This document shows, piece by piece, positions 3,166 through 43,082 of a stretch of 64,000 nucleotides of DNA (position 1 is the first letter of the stretch; each line of letters opens with the position of its first letter). The translations under genes and the position numbers were made by a program. Source of the stretch: an uncultured Bacteroidales bacterium (lineage in GTDB: Bacteria; Bacteroidota; Bacteroidia; Bacteroidales; UBA932); NCBI GenBank assembly GCA_946187865.1, contig CAMHST010000001.1, forward strand, positions 44,070-108,069, in the 5' to 3' direction. Under the pieces are notes generated by a model. That model saw only the letters and a list, made by a program, of their open reading frames with translations, was not told where the DNA came from and did not search any database.

Positions 3166-4187
3166 AGTTGCATGTGTTTTCCGGCCAGAAGGCCGCAGGC
3201 GGCGAAAATATCTTCTCCGCGCGAGGCGCGGATGGTGGCGGTGAGCCCGCCCCGGGAAAGGCGGTCCCGGAAGGCTTCCATCTGCGTGTCGCTGGCGGGT
3301 CCCAGGGGGAAATCGGGGATACGGTGGAAACGGATCAGGTTAACGCGGCATTCCAGTCCGGAAAGCAGGCGCAGGAGCGCGTCTGCATGCCGTTTGGTGT
3401 TGTTCCACCCGTCAAAGACCGTGTACTCGAAACTGACCCGGCGCTGCCCGGTGAAATCGTAGCGGCGGATCAGTTCCACCACCGACTCCAGGGGCCACGC
3501 CTTCTCTACGGGCATCATTTCCAGACGCTCCTCCGGGAAGGGATTGTGCAGGCTCACGGCCAGGTGGCAGTGGCTTTCGTCCAGGTATTTTTTCAGGTTG
3601 GGCAGCACGCCGATCGTGGAAAGGGTGATACGCTTGGGACTCCAGGCCAGCCCCCAGGGGGCCGTGAGGATTTCGATCACCTTTTTCACCTGGTCCCAGT
3701 TGTCCAGCGGCTCTCCCATGCCCATGAAGACGGTGTTGGTGAGCTCCGCGGCTTCGTCGATCGCGAAAAACTGCGAAAGGATGTCTGCGGCCGACAGGTT
3801 TCCGTGGAAGCCCTGCCGCCCCGTCATGCAGAACTTGCAGCCCATCTTGCAGCCGGCCTGGGAGCTGACGCAGAGGGTTTTCCGGTCCTGGTCCGGGATC
3901 ATGACCGTCTCTACGGCGTTCAGGGGGTCCTCCCCTACCGGGAACAGGTATTTCCGGGTACCGTCGACCGAAGTCTGGGAGCCCAGGGGGCGGGCCATGC
4001 CCACCTCCCAGTTTTGGGAGAGGGCTTCCCGGCCGGCCTTGGACAGGTTGGTCATTTCCTGCAGCGAATGGGCGCGGCGCACATACAGCCACTGGGCCAT
4101 CTGCTTGCCGGCGAAAGCGGGCAGGCCGGCGTCCAGGGCAATCTCTTTCAGTTCTTCCGGGGTTTTTCCAAGCAGGCGTTGTTTCAT
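3162..4187 (-). CDS. rlmN: 23S rRNA (adenine2503-C2)-methyltransferase RlmN (radical SAM)
   Basis: CxxxCxxC motif 'CKMGCKFCMTGRQGF', 'TNTVFMGMGEPLDNW'; start set to internal Met 'MKQRLLGKTPEEL'. Confidence 0.93.
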   Translation of the reverse strand: MKQRLLGKTPEELKEIALDAGLPAFAGKQMAQWLYVRRAHSLQEMTNLSKAGREALSQNWEVGMARPLGSQTSVDGTRKYLFPVGEDPLNAVETVMIPDQDRKTLCVSSQAGCKMGCKFCMTGRQGFHGNLSAADILSQFFAIDEAAELTNTVFMGMGEPLDNWDQVKKVIEILTAPWGLAWSPKRITLSTIGVLPNLKKYLDESHCHLAVSLHNPFPEERLEMMPVEKAWPLESVVELIRRYDFTGQRRVSFEYTVFDGWNNTKRHADALLRLLSGLECRVNLIRFHRIPDFPLGPASDTQMEAFRDRLSRGGLTATIRASRGEDIFAACGLLAGKHMQL

Positions 4188-29732: not shown

Positions 29733-31357
<1,625 letters not shown>

Positions 31358-32598: not shown

Positions 32599-32904
32599 AT
32601 GATGGCAAACGAAGTTAAGAATGCAGCAGTAGAATCTGCTGCCCAGACCGCTCAGACCCCGAATTCAAGGGCCAGAATGCCCTTTTCTCCCGGAACGAAA
32701 AAGGGAGCCCGCCTCCGTCCCGTATTTGACTTCCTGATGGACGAAAACGTCTCCCTTTCGGAGCTCGGCCGCCGTGTGGGAATCTCCCGCCAAAGCATGA
32801 GCACCCGCTTCGCCGTGGACGACTGCAAAATGTCCGACATGGAAAAGATGGCCGACGCCCTCGGCTACGATTTCGAGTGGACCTTTAAGAAGAGGCAGCA
32901 GTAG
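32599..32904 (+). CDS. Small HTH (lambda-repressor-like) DNA-binding protein
   Basis: 'VSLSELGRRVGISRQSMSTRFAVDDCKMSDMEKMADALGYDFEWTF'. Confidence 0.75.
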   Translation: MMANEVKNAAVESAAQTAQTPNSRARMPFSPGTKKGARLRPVFDFLMDENVSLSELGRRVGISRQSMSTRFAVDDCKMSDMEKMADALGYDFEWTFKKRQQ

Positions 32905-34819
32905 CCCCCGGCTCCGGATCCGGCCGGTTGAGTTCCTTTTGCACGAGGTTATAAACCTCGTTGCGGATGCGCTTATAGTTGAGCCGGACCTCCTTCATGA
33001 TTGTTTCTTTTGTTGTATCGACGACCTGCGGGACTTCCTCCTTGTGGGTCGTCTTTCCGTCCGAGATAATCTCCCCGCAGAACACCTTCGGGTGGATCTT
33101 CTGCCGATACTCATCGGCCACGTAGCCGCAGAAGGAGCCTTGCGACAGCGCCTCTATACGGCTGGCCGGGAGCACATCCCGCTGCTGGAAGGATATGGTG
33201 ACGTGTTCGGAGGTGTCGCTCTCCTGATAGGAGCGTGTTTCCTGCTCGAACTTGCCGAACGACTTGGACAGTCCCTCGGCCGTCTCGCCCTTGACAGCAC
33301 CGGCAAAGACGTTCCCCACCGTGTTGAAGATGACGTCCGATTCCTTCTTGTCGTAATCTTTCACCAGCTGGGATTTGTCCTGGGCGCCTAGTACCACAGC
33401 GACCTTATTCTGCCGGGCCGTGTTGATGAGGTGGTCCAGGCCTTTCAGGTAGATGGTGGGCAGTTCGTCAATCAGCACGCCGCAGCGCATCATCCCGGGC
33501 CGGTTGATAATCTTGAAGAGCTGGCTCATCAGCATGGCCAGCGTGGTCCCGTAGACCTGCTGACGGGTGGGATTGTTCCCCACGCAGACAATCTTCGGAT
33601 GCTGCGGGTCGTTGATTTGCAGGGAGAAATCGTCCCCGGAGAGCGTCCAGTACAGGGTTTCGGAGACAAAGCGGTTGAGTGGCACACGGGCCGATGCAAT
33701 CTGGCCCTGCAGCTGCTCGAAGGCCCGGTCCGTTATGGCGTCCTGAAAAGTGTTGCGCTTCACGTCCAGTTCCGGATAGCGCTGCATAATCAGCAGCACG
33801 TGCTTGTAGTTCTGCCCCATCAGCTCGATGAGGTGCGGAAATGTGCAATACTTGCCGCCCTCGTAGATTCGAAGGAACCAGATGAGCATATCCACGTAGC
33901 AACGGGCAGACAGTGAGAAGAAATCATCCCCCTTGTTCGTCTCCTTGCTGGCGTTTTTCATGATTACCTCGGCAATCTCCGTGGCGTCGATGGGGTCCTG
34001 CAGGTAGCGCGGATGGATGGGGTTGAAGCGGTGCGAGTACAGCGGGTCATCAAAGTTCACCACATACATCTCCGGCTTCACGCCCTTGTAGCAGTCGATG
34101 TTGTCCAGCAGCTCGTTCATCACGCGCTGAGTGAGGTCCGGGAACTTGTAGTCATACACAAAGAGCGAATAGCCCTTCTGGATCATCTGCCGGATGTAAG
34201 GGCCATAGACCGAGTGAGTCTTGCCGGAGCCGGGCGTGCCGATGACCATCGTCCCGCGGAAAGGGTTCACCACATTGATGTAGCCCTTGTGCATCTTGCC
34301 TTTATCCTGATACCGCGTGGGGATATTGATGCTGTAGCGGTTTTCAATCAGCCTTTCGCACTGCGGGAAAGTATCGTTTCCCCGGTCCATCGTACCGGCC
34401 TTCATCGCCCTCCAGGCACGGCCCAGGGCGATGGCGCCCATCAGATACAAGGCGAAACCCACCAGTGTCATCAACACGTACAGCAGCCCGGTTCCCGCCG
34501 CACGTCCGCCGAAGAATAGGGCCGCCCCGATGCCGACGGGAAGGGCTACCTCCTGCCACTGCGCCTCCTTGGAACTGCCGCTCCGGACCATCACGGACCA
34601 GGTGCAGAAGAACAGCGCAATCAGCCGCACATCCCACCAGTTCTGCATCACTCCTGCCTTGTAGATGGCCAGCATCAGCGAGTCCGTCAGTCCGGCTGTC
34701 AGGTGCAACTCCGCCCAGAACGGGTAGGCCTCATAGTAAATCATTATCAGTACCAGCGCTCCCGAGAAATATAGGAACGCCGAAAACATGGGTTTAGTTC
34801 TTGAATCCATACGCCTCAA
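32885..34819 (-). CDS. mobC: MobC/TraG-type conjugal coupling ATPase (T4CP)
   Basis: Walker A 'VIGTPGSGKTHSVYGPYIRQMIQKGYSLFVYDYKFPDLT', 'VLIDELPTIYLKGLDHLINTARQNKVAVVLGAQDKSQL', N-terminal TMs. Confidence 0.9.
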   Translation of the reverse strand: MRRMDSRTKPMFSAFLYFSGALVLIMIYYEAYPFWAELHLTAGLTDSLMLAIYKAGVMQNWWDVRLIALFFCTWSVMVRSGSSKEAQWQEVALPVGIGAALFFGGRAAGTGLLYVLMTLVGFALYLMGAIALGRAWRAMKAGTMDRGNDTFPQCERLIENRYSINIPTRYQDKGKMHKGYINVVNPFRGTMVIGTPGSGKTHSVYGPYIRQMIQKGYSLFVYDYKFPDLTQRVMNELLDNIDCYKGVKPEMYVVNFDDPLYSHRFNPIHPRYLQDPIDATEIAEVIMKNASKETNKGDDFFSLSARCYVDMLIWFLRIYEGGKYCTFPHLIELMGQNYKHVLLIMQRYPELDVKRNTFQDAITDRAFEQLQGQIASARVPLNRFVSETLYWTLSGDDFSLQINDPQHPKIVCVGNNPTRQQVYGTTLAMLMSQLFKIINRPGMMRCGVLIDELPTIYLKGLDHLINTARQNKVAVVLGAQDKSQLVKDYDKKESDVIFNTVGNVFAGAVKGETAEGLSKSFGKFEQETRSYQESDTSEHVTISFQQRDVLPASRIEALSQGSFCGYVADEYRQKIHPKVFCGEIISDGKTTHKEEVPQVVDTTKETIMKEVRLNYKRIRNEVYNLVQKELNRPDPEPGATAASS

Positions 34820-34822
34820 TCT

Positions 34823-36004
34823 TTATCTGTGTCTTCCCCTTCTCATGATCTCCTCATCCTCGTGACGGCGGCTCCGTTCCGCCGCCATCGCAGCCACCAG
34901 CGATTCGGCCGCCTCTTCTGCTGCCGTTTTCTGCCGGGGCTCCTCCCAGACTTTCCACTCCCGGTCCTCCGGAGGCCACTTGGTCATCCGGGCTTCCTCG
35001 AACTGACCGGCGGTGATGCCCTTCAACTCGCTGGACTTGAACACGCAGCGGGTCTGATGGTCGATGAAAGTAACGCCGAAAATCTTCCCCTCCTTGGTGC
35101 GGGAAAAGACAATCCCGATGTTCTTTTTCCGAAGAATCCGCCGCGTATGCAGCTCGGAAGTGCCATTTTTCAAGGCTATGCGGGCCAGGTTGGCCACGCG
35201 CTGCTTCTCCTTGTCACGTTTCTCTTTCTTGCAATCTTCAATGTGCTTGCGGATTTCTTCCATCGCAGGTACGTTCAGGTCTTTTTCCGGGATGGGCGCC
35301 GTACATTTGCGCCCGGTCTTGGGGTCAACGCCATAGTAAACCAGCATCGGCTTGCGCCGTATCATCTGCTCTTCCACAACTACGCCGAACTGCTTCATCA
35401 GCATCTTATACTGCTCGCCGGTGGTGAAATGGTACTTCATGGCCAGCTCCACAAGCGCTTCTATCTGCTTCATATAGTCGCCCTTCTCAGGGTCGAAACG
35501 CGGATAATCCACCCGCTCATCCTTCGGCCCTTTGTCCTTCTTCTCCTTCTTTTCTCCCTTGCCGATGGTGAAGCCGTACTTCGGGGCCAGCTCCTTCATC
35601 AGCTCCTGGCAGCGTCGGTGCTCCTGATGGTCGGGAATCTTCCGGCCGTCCTTGTCCACGCGCACGGATACGATATGGTAGTGCTCGCGGCCGATGTCGT
35701 TGTGCCGGTAGATGATGAAGGGCTGGTTGCCATAACCGAGGCCCTCCATCATTTCCCGAGCAAAGCTGACAATCTGTTCCTGGCTCATCCCGTCCGTCAC
35801 CGACGGATTGATGGACATGTGAAAGGACATCTTCTCGCACCGGCGGCTGCCGCGTTCATACCGCTCGAAAGTCTCAAGCGGTTTCTCCGGGTTATCGAGA
35901 CCCTGGGAACAGACCACGGCAGCCTTGCCCTCTTCCACTTTCCTCTCATTGTACTGGAGGCTGGTGGAACAGTGCGGTGTGGGTGCGTTGATTTTCACTA
36001 CCAT
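34823..36004 (-). CDS. mobB: MobB-type relaxase
   Basis: 'KMSFHMSINPSVTDGMSQEQIVSFAREMMEGLGYGNQPFIIYRHNDIGREHYHIVSVRVDKDGRKI' relaxase HxH motif. Confidence 0.9.
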   Translation of the reverse strand: MVVKINAPTPHCSTSLQYNERKVEEGKAAVVCSQGLDNPEKPLETFERYERGSRRCEKMSFHMSINPSVTDGMSQEQIVSFAREMMEGLGYGNQPFIIYRHNDIGREHYHIVSVRVDKDGRKIPDHQEHRRCQELMKELAPKYGFTIGKGEKKEKKDKGPKDERVDYPRFDPEKGDYMKQIEALVELAMKYHFTTGEQYKMLMKQFGVVVEEQMIRRKPMLVYYGVDPKTGRKCTAPIPEKDLNVPAMEEIRKHIEDCKKEKRDKEKQRVANLARIALKNGTSELHTRRILRKKNIGIVFSRTKEGKIFGVTFIDHQTRCVFKSSELKGITAGQFEEARMTKWPPEDREWKVWEEPRQKTAAEEAAESLVAAMAAERSRRHEDEEIMRRGRHR

Positions 36005-36044: not shown

Positions 36045-36350
36045 TCAGCTCTCCTTGGGGAGCGGTGCCAGGTCCAGGCTGCCCACCCAGACGTCCAGGT
36101 TCACATAGGTCTTGCCTTCCTTCTCCACCACATTCACCTTGAGGTTCCCGAGGATGGACACGAAGCGTCCCTTCTTCAGGTACTCGGCGATGCCGGTCTT
36201 CTTCATCCGGCATGTGTAGTACGTCGGCTTTTCTTCCTTGTCCCGGCCGTCTTTCACGGCCACGTCGAAACGGAGCATCTCGGCCCCTTCCTTCCCTTGG
36301 ATCACCTCGCAATCCTTGGCGAGGTTCCCCGAAATCAAAATGGTTTGCAT
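36045..36350 (-). CDS. ssb: Single-stranded DNA-binding protein (OB fold), short form
   Basis: 'MQTILISGNLAKDCEVIQ...LRFDVAVKDG...TYYTCRMKKTGIAEYLKKGRFVSILGNLKVNVVEKEGKTYVNLDVWV'. Confidence 0.85.
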   Translation of the reverse strand: MQTILISGNLAKDCEVIQGKEGAEMLRFDVAVKDGRDKEEKPTYYTCRMKKTGIAEYLKKGRFVSILGNLKVNVVEKEGKTYVNLDVWVGSLDLAPLPKES

Positions 36351-36372: not shown

Positions 36373-36825
36373 TTATACATAGGAGGACTCATCATCCTCA
36401 CTTTCTTTCTCATCTCCTTCTTCACCGGCGCAGCCGGTCACCTCCTCCCGGATGACCGAAAAGGTCCTGACCATTTCGGTCATCATCTCCTTCATCTCGG
36501 TCATGTCGTGCTCGATGTCCCGCGCATTGATAATGACGTTCCCGTGCCTGTCGCGCACGAGCGCAAGGCGGTTGAGCGTCTTTACGCGCTGGTTGTAGTT
36601 CACGCCGATGCGCTTGAGATCCAGGCGGAGCAGCTCGATCTGCTTCGCCACGTTTGCCTCATTCAGACTAAGGTTCCTGCGCTTGCGGACGCGCGTAGAA
36701 AGCAGCGCGTCACGGATGTACCTTGAACGGTTGTTATACCCGGAAAGATGCATCTGGGTATTCAGCTTCTCGAACTCTTTCTCCGAGAAACGCACATTGA
36801 CATAGTGTTTTCTAATCTCTCTCAC
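36373..36825 (-). CDS. mobA: MobA-type plasmid mobilization protein (ribbon-helix-helix); likely GTG start
   Basis: 'HYVNVRFSEKEFEKLNTQMHLSGYNNRSRYIRDALL...LDLKRIGVNYNQRVKTLNRL'; ORF-track start at 37044 runs through structured non-coding DNA and is probably over-extended. Confidence 0.8.
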   Translation of the reverse strand: MREIRKHYVNVRFSEKEFEKLNTQMHLSGYNNRSRYIRDALLSTRVRKRRNLSLNEANVAKQIELLRLDLKRIGVNYNQRVKTLNRLALVRDRHGNVIINARDIEHDMTEMKEMMTEMVRTFSVIREEVTGCAGEEGDEKESEDDESSYV

Positions 36826-36866
36826 AATACCAAACTCTACATTAAACACTGTCTCCACTGCCCAGA

Positions 36867-36996
36867 CGGGCCGTAGGCCCGAAAGCAGGCGACTTCGGAG
36901 CCTGCTGTGCCCGCCGTAGGCGCACGAGATGGCCCCGTAGGGGTCTGCGTTCGTGACACGAAAGCCCATCTCGCAATCTGGACTAACGCCCAGATT
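36867..36996. repeat. Run of consecutive hairpins upstream of mobA (candidate oriT/leader)
   Basis: CGGGCC-GTA-GGCCCG; AGCAGGC-N9-GCCTGCT; CGCC-GTA-GGCG; GGCCCC-GTA-GGGGTC; TTCGTG-A-CACGAA; CGAGATGG..CCATCTCG; AATCTGG..CCAGATT. Confidence 0.75.
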
Positions 36997-37103
36997 CACC
37001 GCTCCTTTATAAGTCGCGCTGCAAACATAGGCATTTTGTGGCAAATTGACAAATACTATTTGACAAAGTAAGACAAAACATATACTTTTGTGGCGGACTT
37101 TTC

Positions 37104-37264
37104 TGATATCAATGCATCAATGTAAGGATGTATCTTGATAGAAAGGATAGAAGATAGCTTGTCATCTTGATAGCTTGATAGGTTGAAACAATGGCATAAA
37201 GATGCATTGATATCAAGATGACATGATGAAATGATGACAAGATGAGAAGATACAATGATATCAA
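37104..37264. promoter_or_regulatory. mobA/orf divergent region with TGATATCAA palindromes and 15-bp inverted repeat
   Basis: TGATATCAA at 37104, 37208, 37256; TGATATCAATGCATC (37104-37118) is the exact reverse complement of GATGCATTGATATCA (37201-37215). Confidence 0.65.
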
Positions 37265-37297
37265 GTAATCAAGTAACCAAGTAAACATTATATCAAT

Positions 37298-37606
37298 ATG
37301 ACACAGTTGGACGAATTCCGGGAGCAGCTGCGACAGCGCCCCAAGCTACATCAAGATGAGAGAGACAAGCCGGTGGCCGAGGATCCCTCGGCGCCAAAGA
37401 AGGTGAGAAAGAAAAAGGATGCCCCGCAGGAGCGGGCGGCCGTCTGGATTCCCAAGGAGGTTCAGCGCAAAGTCCGCCTGCTGGGAATCTGGCTGGACTC
37501 GGAAGGGCTGGAGGATGCCCCCTCCCTCGGCGATGTCATCACCGAGGCAATTGAGCATCTTATCGACACCAAGTACCCTAAAGCGAAGAAATTTGCCGAG
37601 AAATGA
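37298..37606 (+). CDS. Hypothetical small basic protein (possible RHH/partition-like)
   Basis: 102 aa; 'ERAAVWIPKEVQRKVRLLGIWLDSEGLEDAPSLGDVITEAIEHLI'. Confidence 0.65.
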   Translation: MTQLDEFREQLRQRPKLHQDERDKPVAEDPSAPKKVRKKKDAPQERAAVWIPKEVQRKVRLLGIWLDSEGLEDAPSLGDVITEAIEHLIDTKYPKAKKFAEK

Positions 37607-37636
37607 CTAAATTTGTTTCTTGGATGATTTCAGACG

Positions 37637-38200
37637 ATGAAAAGTACAATTAACGAGGACAACAAATGGAAGGTGCTCCACTCCGAGTATCTGATACAGC
37701 GCCCGTGGCTGACGGTGCGCAAGGATGAGGTGCAACTTCCGGATGGTCGCATCAATCCTGAGTACTATATCTTTGAGTGCCGCGATGGTGTGAACATTAT
37801 TGCCATCACAAAGACCGGCGAAATCATCCTGGAACGCCAGTACCGGCACGGCCTGGGCAAGACTTGCTACGAGCTACCCTGTGGTGTAGTGGAAGATGGT
37901 GAAACGCCGCTGCAGGCCGCCAAGCGCGAACTTCTGGAGGAAACCGGATACTCCGGAGGCATGTGGCAGGAACTGATGACCATTTCTCCCAACGTGGGCA
38001 CTCACAATAATCTGGTGCATTGTTTCCTCGCCCGGGATGTCGAGAAGGTTGCCGACCAGAGACTGGACCCTACCGAAGACATCAAAATCTCCCTTCACAG
38101 CGAATCCTATGTGCGTGAACTGCTGGTCGATAACCAGATTATGCACGGGCAGATGGTCGCCTCGTTGTGGAAATTCTTCTATCAGCTGGATAAGAAATAG
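37637..38200 (+). CDS. NUDIX hydrolase
   Basis: NUDIX box 'GVVEDGETPLQAAKRELLEETGYSG'. Confidence 0.93.
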   Translation: MKSTINEDNKWKVLHSEYLIQRPWLTVRKDEVQLPDGRINPEYYIFECRDGVNIIAITKTGEIILERQYRHGLGKTCYELPCGVVEDGETPLQAAKRELLEETGYSGGMWQELMTISPNVGTHNNLVHCFLARDVEKVADQRLDPTEDIKISLHSESYVRELLVDNQIMHGQMVASLWKFFYQLDKK

Positions 38201-38203
38201 GAT

Positions 38204-38344
38204 AGCCGGTCAGGCGGGCTTGCCCGACTGACGGGCGGAAAGAGGCGCGGCGGTGGAACAGTCTCTGACGGGCTTGCCCCGGCAGAGTCTGTGGAGCCGT
38301 GAGACTTTCGCGGCGGCTTCGCCGACGTGAAGGTCTCAAGCGCC
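38204..38344 (+). repeat. 141-bp multi-hairpin direct repeat, copy 1
   Basis: Starts 3 bp after the NUDIX stop; about 96% identical (6 mismatches) to 38668-38808. Confidence 0.92.
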
Positions 38345-38457
38345 GACGGAGCGGAAGTGGGGTTGGCAGCTTGCTGACAACCCGACTGGAGTGACAACCC
38401 GTAACAAATGCCACGGTTTTTGCATCTATAGAGGCGTAAAACCAATCAAGTACAACA

Positions 38458-38766
38458 ATGAAACCGAGGAAAGGAAAGAAACTGCGGATTACGGAGGCCG
38501 ACTATATGTTGGCCCAGCGCAGGGCGGCTCGGATGGAAGAGATTGCCGAGCACGGGAGGCCGGTTTCATACTCGGCGTTCCACAAATCCAAAAAGGTCTA
38601 TGACCGCAAGCGTTTGAAGAGGACGGGCATCAATCTCGATGACTCGTTCTCTTTTCGTGCTTGGGAGAGCCGGTCAGGCGGGTTTACCCGACTGACGGGC
38701 GGTAATAGGCGCGGCGGTGGAACAGTCTCTGACGGGCTTGCCCCGGCAGAGTCTGTGGAGCCGTGA
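38458..38766 (+). CDS. Small basic hypothetical protein; last ~33 codons encoded by repeat copy 2
   Basis: 'MKPRKGKKLRITEADYMLAQRRAARMEEIAEHGRPVSYSAFHKSKKVYDRKRLKRTGINLDDSFSF' plausible; tail lies in the repeat. Confidence 0.5.
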   Translation: MKPRKGKKLRITEADYMLAQRRAARMEEIAEHGRPVSYSAFHKSKKVYDRKRLKRTGINLDDSFSFRAWESRSGGFTRLTGGNRRGGGTVSDGLAPAESVEP

Positions 38767-38808
38767 GACTTTCGCGGCGGCTCCGCCGACGTAAAGGTCT
38801 CAAGCGCC
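38668..38808 (+). repeat. 141-bp multi-hairpin direct repeat, copy 2
   Basis: AGCCGGTCAGGCGGG...GGTCTCAAGCGCC, 6 mismatches to copy 1, no indels. Confidence 0.92.
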
Positions 38809-38881
38809 ATTCAGCGGAGATGAAGCGGCAGGTTCACCTGACGCTTGGTCGGAGCGGAGATTTTGGTTAAATTTGCAATAC

Positions 38882-39045
38882 GACACGGCGGGACGTTCTT
38901 TTGCTAATGGCCAGAGCAGGCCCTGTTCCGCTGTGATGCCTTTCGGGCATGGTCGGAGTCCTTTTTCACGCGGGGCTCCGGTTTCGTTTGTGCTCCGGGC
39001 GGAAGCACAATTATAAACCCTCACTATGCTGTAGCGAGGGTTTTG
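38882..39045 (+). ncRNA. Candidate structured small RNA with terminator, antisense to the RadC-like gene 3' end
   Basis: Upstream TAAATTTG (-7-like, about 38868), hairpins ATGCC-GGCAT and TTGTGCT-N-AGCACAA, ending in AACCCTC-N13-GAGGGTTTT; no convincing + strand ORF. Confidence 0.3.
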
Positions 39046-39620
39046 AGGATGGTTTCGTTATATTTGGCTTTATGCTCCTCCTGGAAGGAATAGTAAGAGG
39101 AATCGGAGATGATGATGTGGTCGAAGAGGTGTAGTTCTACTGCTGCACAGGCTTTCTCAAGAGTCTTGGTCGCCAGAACATCTGCCTTGCTGGGCATGGG
39201 ATCACCCGTGGGATGGTTGTGGGAAATGATGATGCCGTGGGCGCCGAGGAGTAATGCATGACGGAGAATCTGCTTGTTGTCAATGGTAGTCTGGGTAAAG
39301 CCACCCTTGGAAATCTGCATCCGCTTGATGATGGTGTTCTTGCGGGAGAGATAAAGAATCCAGCACTCTTCATGGTCCAGTCCCTTCATGACGGGCAGCA
39401 GGTAGAAACTGGCCAGGTCGGCATTCTTGATTTGCACGTTCGTACTAACCGGTATGGAAACCATGTATTCGGAAATGGCTTCTCTCAGGACACCGATTCT
39501 GTCCAGCTGTTCATTAGAGAAACCTTCCAGATAACCGGCGCCGCTGGCAAGGATAAGGTCGGATACATTCCAGTCTTCGCGGAGTTCAAGCCCCAGCTTG
39601 TTGAGTTCTTCACATCTCAT
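39024..39620 (-). CDS. RadC-like JAB/MPN domain protein
   Basis: 'GAHGIIISHNHPTGDPMPSKADVLATKTLEKACAAVELHLFDHIIISDSSYYSFQE'. Confidence 0.92.
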   Translation of the reverse strand: MRCEELNKLGLELREDWNVSDLILASGAGYLEGFSNEQLDRIGVLREAISEYMVSIPVSTNVQIKNADLASFYLLPVMKGLDHEECWILYLSRKNTIIKRMQISKGGFTQTTIDNKQILRHALLLGAHGIIISHNHPTGDPMPSKADVLATKTLEKACAAVELHLFDHIIISDSSYYSFQEEHKAKYNETILKTLATA

Positions 39621-41353: not shown

Positions 41354-42382
41354 TCAGATGTCCGAATAGCGCAACAGCCAGTCGGAATACCAGGCCAGCA
41401 TGGCGGCGTGAACGTAGGCGTCCACATTGGAAATACCCCGGCGGATGCGAATGTCGGCTGTGAGACTGGCCAGTTTGTCCGTGAACGAATGCAGATCCTC
41501 GAAATCCAATTGTTTCCAGATGTCGGCAATGGCCTGTGCATGCCCTCCTGCGGCATTCATCAGCAAACGACACGCATCCCAGGCCTCCTGCGTCGCCTTG
41601 TTTCTGGTCTCTTCATCTACCTGATAGCCAATCTTAAAGCAGATGTACTGACGGTCGGAGCGAAGCAGCAGTCGGAAATCGAACCAGATGGGATAATGCT
41701 CCCGCAAATCGGCGGCTGACGGTTTCAGGATGTGCGTTACGATATTGTCCGAACGGTCATAGGACGGCCCGAGCGTAAGCATCCGCCGAAGTTCGTCAAT
41801 ACTTAGGACAAAACCGCCGCGATTACGCCAGGAGCAGACCAACCAGTAGAGCCGGACGGTGTATTTGTTGGCCATTGAAAGTGCCGCCTGGCAGGAATAG
41901 GCGGTGTAGCCCTCTTCCACCAGAAGCAAGCGGGCCACCATTTGCTCCTGCAGGAAGATTTCAACGTCGTGGCCGTAAGCCGGAAATCGGAACCCCTCTA
42001 TGAATCCTGTGAAATGATTCTTCTGCTCGCTGTCCGGAAAACGGATGGCGGTATGCTCCAACTCCCGAAGGCAAGCACGGAGCCTGGCGCCATTTTTCTC
42101 CCCAATGTGAAAAGCCTGCGCCGGGATGGTCAACACCCGATATCCACGGTCATTCTTCGGCGGCAGGAAAACTTCCGGCACACCCTTCCTTTCATTGCCT
42201 CGCGTCAGGCGCAATCTTATTGCTCGCTGGAGCTCCGAAATGATGGCCATCAGGATGCGAAGGTGATTCAATTTTAAATCGGCTTCTATGTACGTGATTC
42301 CGTTGACATGAAGCAGCTCATCCTTGCGCTGAGGTGCGTCAGGACGTCTTTTTGTGCTTGGAGATGTCAACTTTTTTCTCAC
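41354..42382 (-). CDS. Rep_3-like replication initiator protein; GTG start suggested
   Basis: Winged-helix Rep pattern 'YSCQAALSMANKYTVRLYWLVCSWRNRGGFVLSIDELRRMLTLGPSYDRSDNIVTHILKPSAADLREHYPIWFDFRLL'; adjacent iterons. Confidence 0.85.
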   Translation of the reverse strand: MRKKLTSPSTKRRPDAPQRKDELLHVNGITYIEADLKLNHLRILMAIISELQRAIRLRLTRGNERKGVPEVFLPPKNDRGYRVLTIPAQAFHIGEKNGARLRACLRELEHTAIRFPDSEQKNHFTGFIEGFRFPAYGHDVEIFLQEQMVARLLLVEEGYTAYSCQAALSMANKYTVRLYWLVCSWRNRGGFVLSIDELRRMLTLGPSYDRSDNIVTHILKPSAADLREHYPIWFDFRLLLRSDRQYICFKIGYQVDEETRNKATQEAWDACRLLMNAAGGHAQAIADIWKQLDFEDLHSFTDKLASLTADIRIRRGISNVDAYVHAAMLAWYSDWLLRYSDI

Positions 42383-42506
42383 AAAGTAAGCCGGTTTTTG
42401 TCTCAAAAGTATCTGAAATATTTTGAAAGAACAAATTTTTGCCTTTCCTTTGTTGTCAAATAGCGTATGACAATGCAAGACTAAATGCGTCAAACCAAAA
42501 CGAGAA

Positions 42507-43082
42507 ATGACAAAAAGGCATTCAATAAGCAAATCATTCGGAACCATCCTCACCGGATTGTTCCTCATCCTCTCGTGTACCTCAGCCTCGGCCCAGCGAA
42601 CCATCTCTGGCCAATCTACCCTCGCAATCTCTGCGCACTATACCGGCACGTCCGTGGGGGCCGAGGCTTTCTATTCGCAATATACCCTTGGCGGTTTCTG
42701 GGAGTCCGGCATCATGGTATCCCCCTACCGTTACGGGCTTTCCACAAACCATATTCTGGACGACTGGCACATTTCTGCCGCCGGGGCCTACCTTTGGAGA
42801 CTCGCCGCCACTCGCAGCCGCAGTTTCAATTGGTACGCAGGCGCAGGCGTATTCGCGGGTATAGAATGGTTGGACCCGTTCGGGCACCTGCCTGATTACA
42901 TCGATCTGGGAACAGCCAATATCCGTTTCCTGTATGGCGTCTATGCAATGACCAGCCTGGAAATCTTCCTCTCTTCCAGGTTCGCCCTTCTGGTCCAGGG
43001 CGCCCTTCCTGTCAACTTCTCTTCCTATGCCGGGAACATCCACTGGCAGGCGGGACTTGGGATCAAATTCATGCTCAACTAA
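42507..43082 (+). CDS. Outer-membrane beta-barrel protein, possibly TraO-like
   Basis: Signal peptide 'LFLILSCTSASAQ', barrel-like alternation 'LLVQGALPVNFSSYAGNIHWQAGLGIKFMLN'. Confidence 0.6.
   Translation: MTKRHSISKSFGTILTGLFLILSCTSASAQRTISGQSTLAISAHYTGTSVGAEAFYSQYTLGGFWESGIMVSPYRYGLSTNHILDDWHISAAGAYLWRLAATRSRSFNWYAGAGVFAGIEWLDPFGHLPDYIDLGTANIRFLYGVYAMTSLEIFLSSRFALLVQGALPVNFSSYAGNIHWQAGLGIKFMLN

Follow-up and report, generated by a model that had tools for sequence, protein, structure and literature searches.

We found a family of structured elements, here called EL, in the window, the whole stretch of 64,000 nucleotides of Bacteroidales DNA that was analysed, and in related genomes. The family and its role as a boundary are well supported. 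EL forms a single-strand fold that is under selection and marks the ends of units in an array of variable cargo. Each unit or cassette consists of at least one accessory gene, usually under a promoter of the unit's own, and is closed by an EL of approximately 195-250 nt. The arrays lie in a mobilisable element, between the mob and F3 genes on one side and the RadC and Rep3 genes on the other. Their gene content shifts between close relatives, with breaks at the 5' start of EL and within or at its 3' end. EL matches no known integron site or RNA family. We read it, tentatively and with slightly less than even confidence, as a new folded site that serves as boundary element in an integron-like array of gene cassettes.

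Structure of the element in the window

An earlier note, made from the letters of this DNA, had described an ungapped pair of repeats 464 bp apart, with three successive hairpins in each copy. We observed the pair at 38200-38344 and 38664-38808 (145 nt, 95% identity, no gaps, 464 nt apart). Both copies folded at -102 to -107 kcal/mol (z approximately -4.7), and for neither was this equalled by any of 200 dinucleotide shuffles. The hairpins were present, but the second and third (P2 and P3) do not simply follow the first (P1): they are enclosed, after P1, by a common closing stem of 5 bp. The two-sided change described at the tip of hairpin 1 (C-T/G-A) was found as well. Each copy is followed by a further hairpin with G.A mismatches, as the note had said; these hairpins are, however, not unrelated extras but a fourth part of the element, P4. 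They seem unrelated in the two copies because P4 exists as covarying sequence types that retain identical pairs (type A, GCGGAAGT...ACTGGAG; type B, GCGGAGACGAAGCG...CGCTTGGTCGGAG; type C, GCTCCGAC...GTCGGAGC). Therefore the element, in the order P1, P2 and P3 on their common stem, and P4, is approximately 195 nt long and not 141, with two copies in the window (Table 1). It reaches approximately 250 nt where P2 is longer, and its composition is 68% GC. In a window-wide scan there were 19 mismatch hairpins, compared with 3-5 in Markov controls. Eight of them had G.A or A.G mismatches, and six of these belonged to the two EL copies.

Both copies had also been placed at the 3' end of a + strand open reading frame. 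This holds for the NUDIX frame, which stops at the start of EL, but the second frame lacks its own stop and runs into copy 2.

Table 1. Features of the mobilisable element, the cassettes and the structured elements in the window
Feature	Position	Strand	Basis
Large serine recombinase, probably the host element's integrase	29765-31357	-	PF00239 and PF07508
TraG/VirD4 coupling protein	32885-34819	-	PF02534
Relaxase (MobA/VirD2 type)	34823-36004	-	PF03432
Single-strand binding protein (SSB)	36045-36350	-	PF00436
MobC-like mobilisation protein	36373-37044	-	PF19514
F3, 102 aa, no clear Pfam family; forms the fixed left-hand border of the cargo site	37298-37606	+	
-7 type promoter AAATGACTAAATTTG at the start of the first cassette; overlaps the F3 stop	37600-37615	+	sequence
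Cassette gene 1, NUDIX hydrolase	37637-38200	+	PF00293
EL copy 1 (P1, P2/P3, P4 type A), directly 3' of the NUDIX stop codon	38200-38395	+	repeat, fold, model R1 159 bits
P1 of EL copy 1; G.A mismatch 4 bp below the loop	38205-38236	+	fold, P1 alignment
Closing stem GGCGC/GCGCC, P2 (with a T.T mismatch that is nearly invariant) and P3 of EL copy 1	38244-38344	+	fold, covariation, mismatch counts
P4 of EL copy 1, type A (GCGGAAGT...ACTGGAGT); includes hairpin 38360-38383	38351-38394	+	fold, covariation
Cassette gene 2 ("F7" family); has lost its native C-terminus, frame enters EL copy 2 from 38664	38458-38766	+	
EL copy 2 (P1, P2/P3, P4 type B)	38664-38857	+	repeat, fold, model R1 152 bits
P4 of EL copy 2, type B (GCGGAGATGAAGCG...CGCTTGGTCGGAGCGG); includes hairpin 38823-38846	38815-38857	+	fold, covariation
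EL2, a different conserved structured element of approximately 112 nt (ACGACACGGCGGGAC...GGGGCTCCGGTTTCGTTT)	38878-38989	+	terminator-like hairpin end
RadC-like protein at the right flank of the cargo site, as in L123 and L126	39024-39680	-	PF04002
Rep3-type initiator, conserved backbone	41354-42604	-	PF01051

Selection on the fold

Covariation was assessed on an alignment of 15 EL copies, with P1 aligned separately. In this alignment 95% of the cells were paired, and two-sided changes were seen in 20 of the 44 pairs. The covariation score was 0.399 (0.156 when shuffled) and collapsed when the pairings were slid. For P1 alone 98.8% of the cells were paired, with a score of 0.340 compared with 0.113 when shuffled. 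The closing stem, unlike every other helix, showed no two-sided change among the 15 copies. The many such changes in all other helices bear out the earlier suggestion that the structure is selected.

We analysed 38 distinct EL copies further. Their stem cells contained 125 G.T or T.G and only 8 A.C or C.A combinations; therefore the + strand of the array is the folding strand. This strand was also the more stable one in every copy computed (37 of 37), whether RNA or DNA parameters were used. Some mismatches are conserved as strongly as pairs: a T.T in P2 (37/38 copies), a G.G in P4 (36/38) and a purine-purine mismatch in P3 (33/38), where one further position was U.G or U.U in 37 of the 38 copies and Watson-Crick in none. 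A selected fold of the + strand with conserved mismatches implies that a single-strand fold, of RNA or DNA, is recognised.

Distribution of EL

A DNA search of 100 relatives detected EL in 9 genomes of a single genus, among them that of the window. We built a covariance model (R1) and ran it on 400 genomes of this genus; strong copies were present in 23 of them, often 2-4 per locus. With the same model no strong copy was found outside the genus in samples of the order, family and phylum. The window's own genome had two strong copies, both in the array described here. The promoter type (TAnnTTTG) and the gene content around EL were Bacteroidales-like. Rfam 15 gave no match to EL (region 37000-39600; the sole weak hit, E = 0.38, was unrelated), plasmid and phage collections contained nothing resembling it, and a pattern scan of viral contigs gave 12 hits, none of which was confirmed by the EL model. 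The earlier note would have given way to a lack of other copies, or to copies with neither covariation nor a link to gene boundaries; copies were found elsewhere, they covary, and they lie at gene boundaries.

Weak R1 hits on other contigs (28-45 bits) were set aside, as they were mostly other mismatch-hairpin elements, several of them near prophage-like genes, and not EL. Short weak matches of 30-38 bits also occurred in the same class but another family (loci L130 and L131; genomes G1341 and G1046), at three places in one genome, and might be dispersed REP-type hairpins. Another kind of large mismatch-hairpin element (GGCGCAGTCTGTGGCGGGCTTGTCCCGACACTGTCTGCGCC...GGAGGAATAGC) was seen in the genus of the window at L050, L054, L055, L077 (G000:C52) and L082-L088, in several cases near tyrosine-recombinase-like and prophage-like genes.

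Host element and cargo site

The order of genes in the window was large serine recombinase, toprim protein, TraG, relaxase, SSB and MobC, all on the - strand, followed by F3 on the + strand, NUDIX, EL, F7, EL, EL2, RadC, an IS1595 insertion, Rep3 and an adenine methyltransferase. Between MobC and F3, which diverge, a run of short tandem-like repeats (37199-37265) is a plausible oriT region. In related elements that lack EL (L123, L126, L127, L128) the RadC and Rep3 genes come after F3, directly or past other genes; therefore the ELs occupy a fixed cargo site. Integrases differ among the EL-bearing elements, a serine recombinase in the window's own and tyrosine recombinases on several other EL contigs, and for this reason we dropped the elements' own integrases as enzymes acting on EL.

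Organization of the arrays

In 10 of 10 multi-copy loci the ELs were co-oriented, while the genes between them ran either way. True reverse genes were present in L023 (which we take to be a flavodoxin-like reductase and a CrcB-like protein), L056 (family F33) and L062 (presumably a rhomboid-like protein). One membrane-protein family was on the + strand in L018 and on the - strand in L023 (66% identity). The cargo is varied and accessory: nitroreductase, DUF5131, an alanyl-tRNA editing-like protein, DUF4234, YfiH, alpha/beta hydrolase, GNAT, AbiEi/AbiEii (toxin-antitoxin), DUF4143 ATPase, Fic and NUDIX. Gene content between copies varied among loci, and the likeness to cassettes with folded sites, which the earlier note had called superficial, goes deeper than that.

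The stop codon of the upstream gene was the TAG of the TAGCC with which EL starts in L018, L019, L021 and L067; after other upstream genes EL began 5-21 nt past the stop codon. A -7-like promoter often lay 3' of EL, before the next start codon. We considered EL as a leader or riboswitch of the next gene and dropped this idea, since a promoter often intervenes before the start codon, and since some of the genes are reversed. Similar promoters on either side of EL were likewise discarded as a special feature; they match a general promoter consensus found elsewhere in the window.

Most arrays contained ELs of one subfamily, whereas L059 held two, which suggests that cassettes bring their own EL. 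Within arrays the ELs were more alike (P3 0.88 vs 0.75; P4 0.85 vs 0.57, by a permutation that ignores species relatedness). In L074 both ELs (1732-1833 and 3305-3406) had an identical internal deletion that removed P2 and P3, a sign of within-array homogenisation.

The element EL2, with its terminator-like hairpin GGGGCTCCGGTTTCG, was found also in L017, L023, L056, L058, L061, L065, L067, L069, L072, L073 and L090, once per array, and adjoined an EL or stood directly 3' of a stop codon. Chimeric ends, in which a hairpin GGCGGGTCCGTTGGCGC..GCGCCGGCGGTCCCGC is followed by an EL-type P4, were observed in L072 (8403-8560 and 10314-10450) and L073 (1450-1607 and 3365-3533; oriented coordinates). 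Thus P4 behaves as a separable module.

These arrangements bear on the first alternative, that EL is an RNA element, namely a structured 3' end on the transcript of the upstream cassette (acting in processing, stability or weak termination), with arrays shuffled by homologous recombination between ELs. Its folded + strand is sense to most upstream genes and has conserved G.U pairs, and it starts 0-21 nt past many stop codons. The promoter that often follows would make it a 3' UTR and not a leader, and the similarity of ELs within arrays fits gene conversion. However, the reversed genes of L023, L056 and L062 lie between ELs of unchanged orientation, and therefore those ELs adjoin the 5' side of a gene that is read away from them. 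EL is also placed behind the terminator-like hairpin of EL2 (L065, L017 and L056), and there is no match in Rfam. The reverse genes and the ELs behind a terminator-like element weaken the role at RNA 3' ends, and we consider this alternative rather unlikely.

Breakpoints between related elements

We compared the element of the window with that of genome G051, the backbones being approximately 92-95% identical. On the left, similarity ended at the F3 stop codon, and on the right it restarted exactly at the start of an EL (GGAGAGCC/GGACAGCC). The genes between these breaks were unrelated, NUDIX-EL-F7 in the window and YfiH in G051, so that EL stayed with the backbone and the gene was replaced. 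G054 shared F3-YfiH-EL with G051 and then added genes plus an EL.

A second case was the presence or absence of the cassette F33 plus EL in L017 and L056/L057. The EL of L017 equalled the upstream EL of L056 and was joined to the sequence 3' of the downstream EL. The junction fell in the identical stretch that makes up the final 30 nt of EL and ends in ...GGAGCGAC. As this 30-nt stretch is the longest identical one, ordinary recombination still fits. Homologous recombination between ELs could have caused both this insertion or deletion and the similarity within arrays; alone it does not account for the sharp 5' junctions of EL with unrelated genes. Genes were also exchanged away from any EL, downstream of F4 in L018 compared with L017 and L056.

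Comparison with known systems

Integron cassettes and CALINs are similar to the EL arrays in many respects. They are arrays of mostly accessory genes in which each unit is closed by a site that folds from one strand, lies at or over the stop codon and has the same orientation as the other sites; some genes are reversed or have their own promoter, the sites are similar within an array, and mismatches are conserved. In contrast, attC forms one hairpin and EL four, over approximately 195-250 nt, and the EL arrays sit in a mobilisable element beside mob genes. None of the 15 EL genomes (drafts) had an integron integrase above the curated cut-off of TIGR02249 (best 83 vs 265 bits), so that the search for an associated recombinase proposed in the earlier note did not yield this enzyme. 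The attC core pair RYYYAAC...GTTRRRY was found in 0 of 38 ELs, and RYYYAAC itself in none. By definition, therefore, the EL arrays are not an integron.

Sites of the pdif type are short double-strand sites of XerC/XerD, whereas EL is long, folded and GC-rich. The pdif modules of Acinetobacter plasmids nevertheless resemble the EL arrays in that they too are carried by mobile elements, with accessory genes between recombination sites and no dedicated recombinase linked to them (PMC12907356).

A less probable alternative is a REP- or MITE-like palindrome that a Y1 (RAYT) or other transposase placed behind genes, the arrays arising by homologous recombination. REP and BIME elements are, as EL, imperfect palindromes with conserved mismatches (purine-purine ones in the EL hairpins) 3' of genes; the ends of EL are sharp and joined to differing flanks, and Y1-type proteins number 2-6 per genome in most sampled members of the genus. 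The window's own genome (87% complete), however, gave no hit to PF01797 (Y1), and EL, a long multi-hairpin element, is not dispersed there, so that a link to RAYT, which the earlier note had suggested looking for, was not borne out. The mapped copies all lie in the same kind of cargo site and in a single orientation, and no pair of sites differing by a lone EL was seen.

Leading regions carry repeated Frpo promoters together with anti-defence or toxin-antitoxin genes (PMC11541004), and the least probable alternative, that EL is such an element, acting in transfer on the single strand that enters (an Frpo/ssi promoter or single-strand origin, repeated along a leading region with establishment genes), fits arrays that begin beside the mob region, where oriT is expected, a fold of one strand with conserved mismatches and a position often just upstream of a gene, but is weakened by the lack of the promoter core TAnnTTTG, the only promoter type scanned (0/38 + strands, 1/38 - strands), by genes in both orientations between ELs and by cargo that is mostly metabolic or housekeeping-like.

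Proposed role of EL

As the boundary of an integron-like cassette array, EL would act at the DNA level as a folded single-strand site of recombination or joining. The fold may be exposed while the element is single-stranded, in conjugative transfer or replication, and a putative trans-acting protein would recognise it through the conserved hairpins that bear mismatches. Units of gene plus EL could thereby be gained, lost and exchanged. Several observations count against this reading. No recombinase was tied to the EL array, as integrases on EL contigs vary between elements; neither an excised circle nor any movement was observed; and the likeness of ELs within arrays matches gene conversion or homologous recombination. 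The EL that stayed with the backbone in the comparison with G051, and the gene exchanges away from any EL, also weigh on that side. Bolder, and in our view doubtful, is the proposal of a complete integron-independent cassette system, in which a putative recombinase or relaxase-like protein acts on four-hairpin single-strand sites, so that mobilisable elements of one genus could take up promoter-bearing cassettes, stack them and exchange them, all in a fixed cargo site next to their mob genes.

In bacteria, integrons are the classic platform for stacking genes by means of sites folded from single strands. To our knowledge, how the gene of an integron cassette gains its boundary element is an open question. 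EL would offer a system in which to study this, as several joins of gene and EL use bases of EL as the stop codon. The EL covariance model can be used to find and annotate cargo arrays in Bacteroidales-like bacteria. If our reading is true, the EL arrays would be a second layout with folded sites, with an unrelated site and without IntI, and folded cassette boundaries would have arisen more than once.
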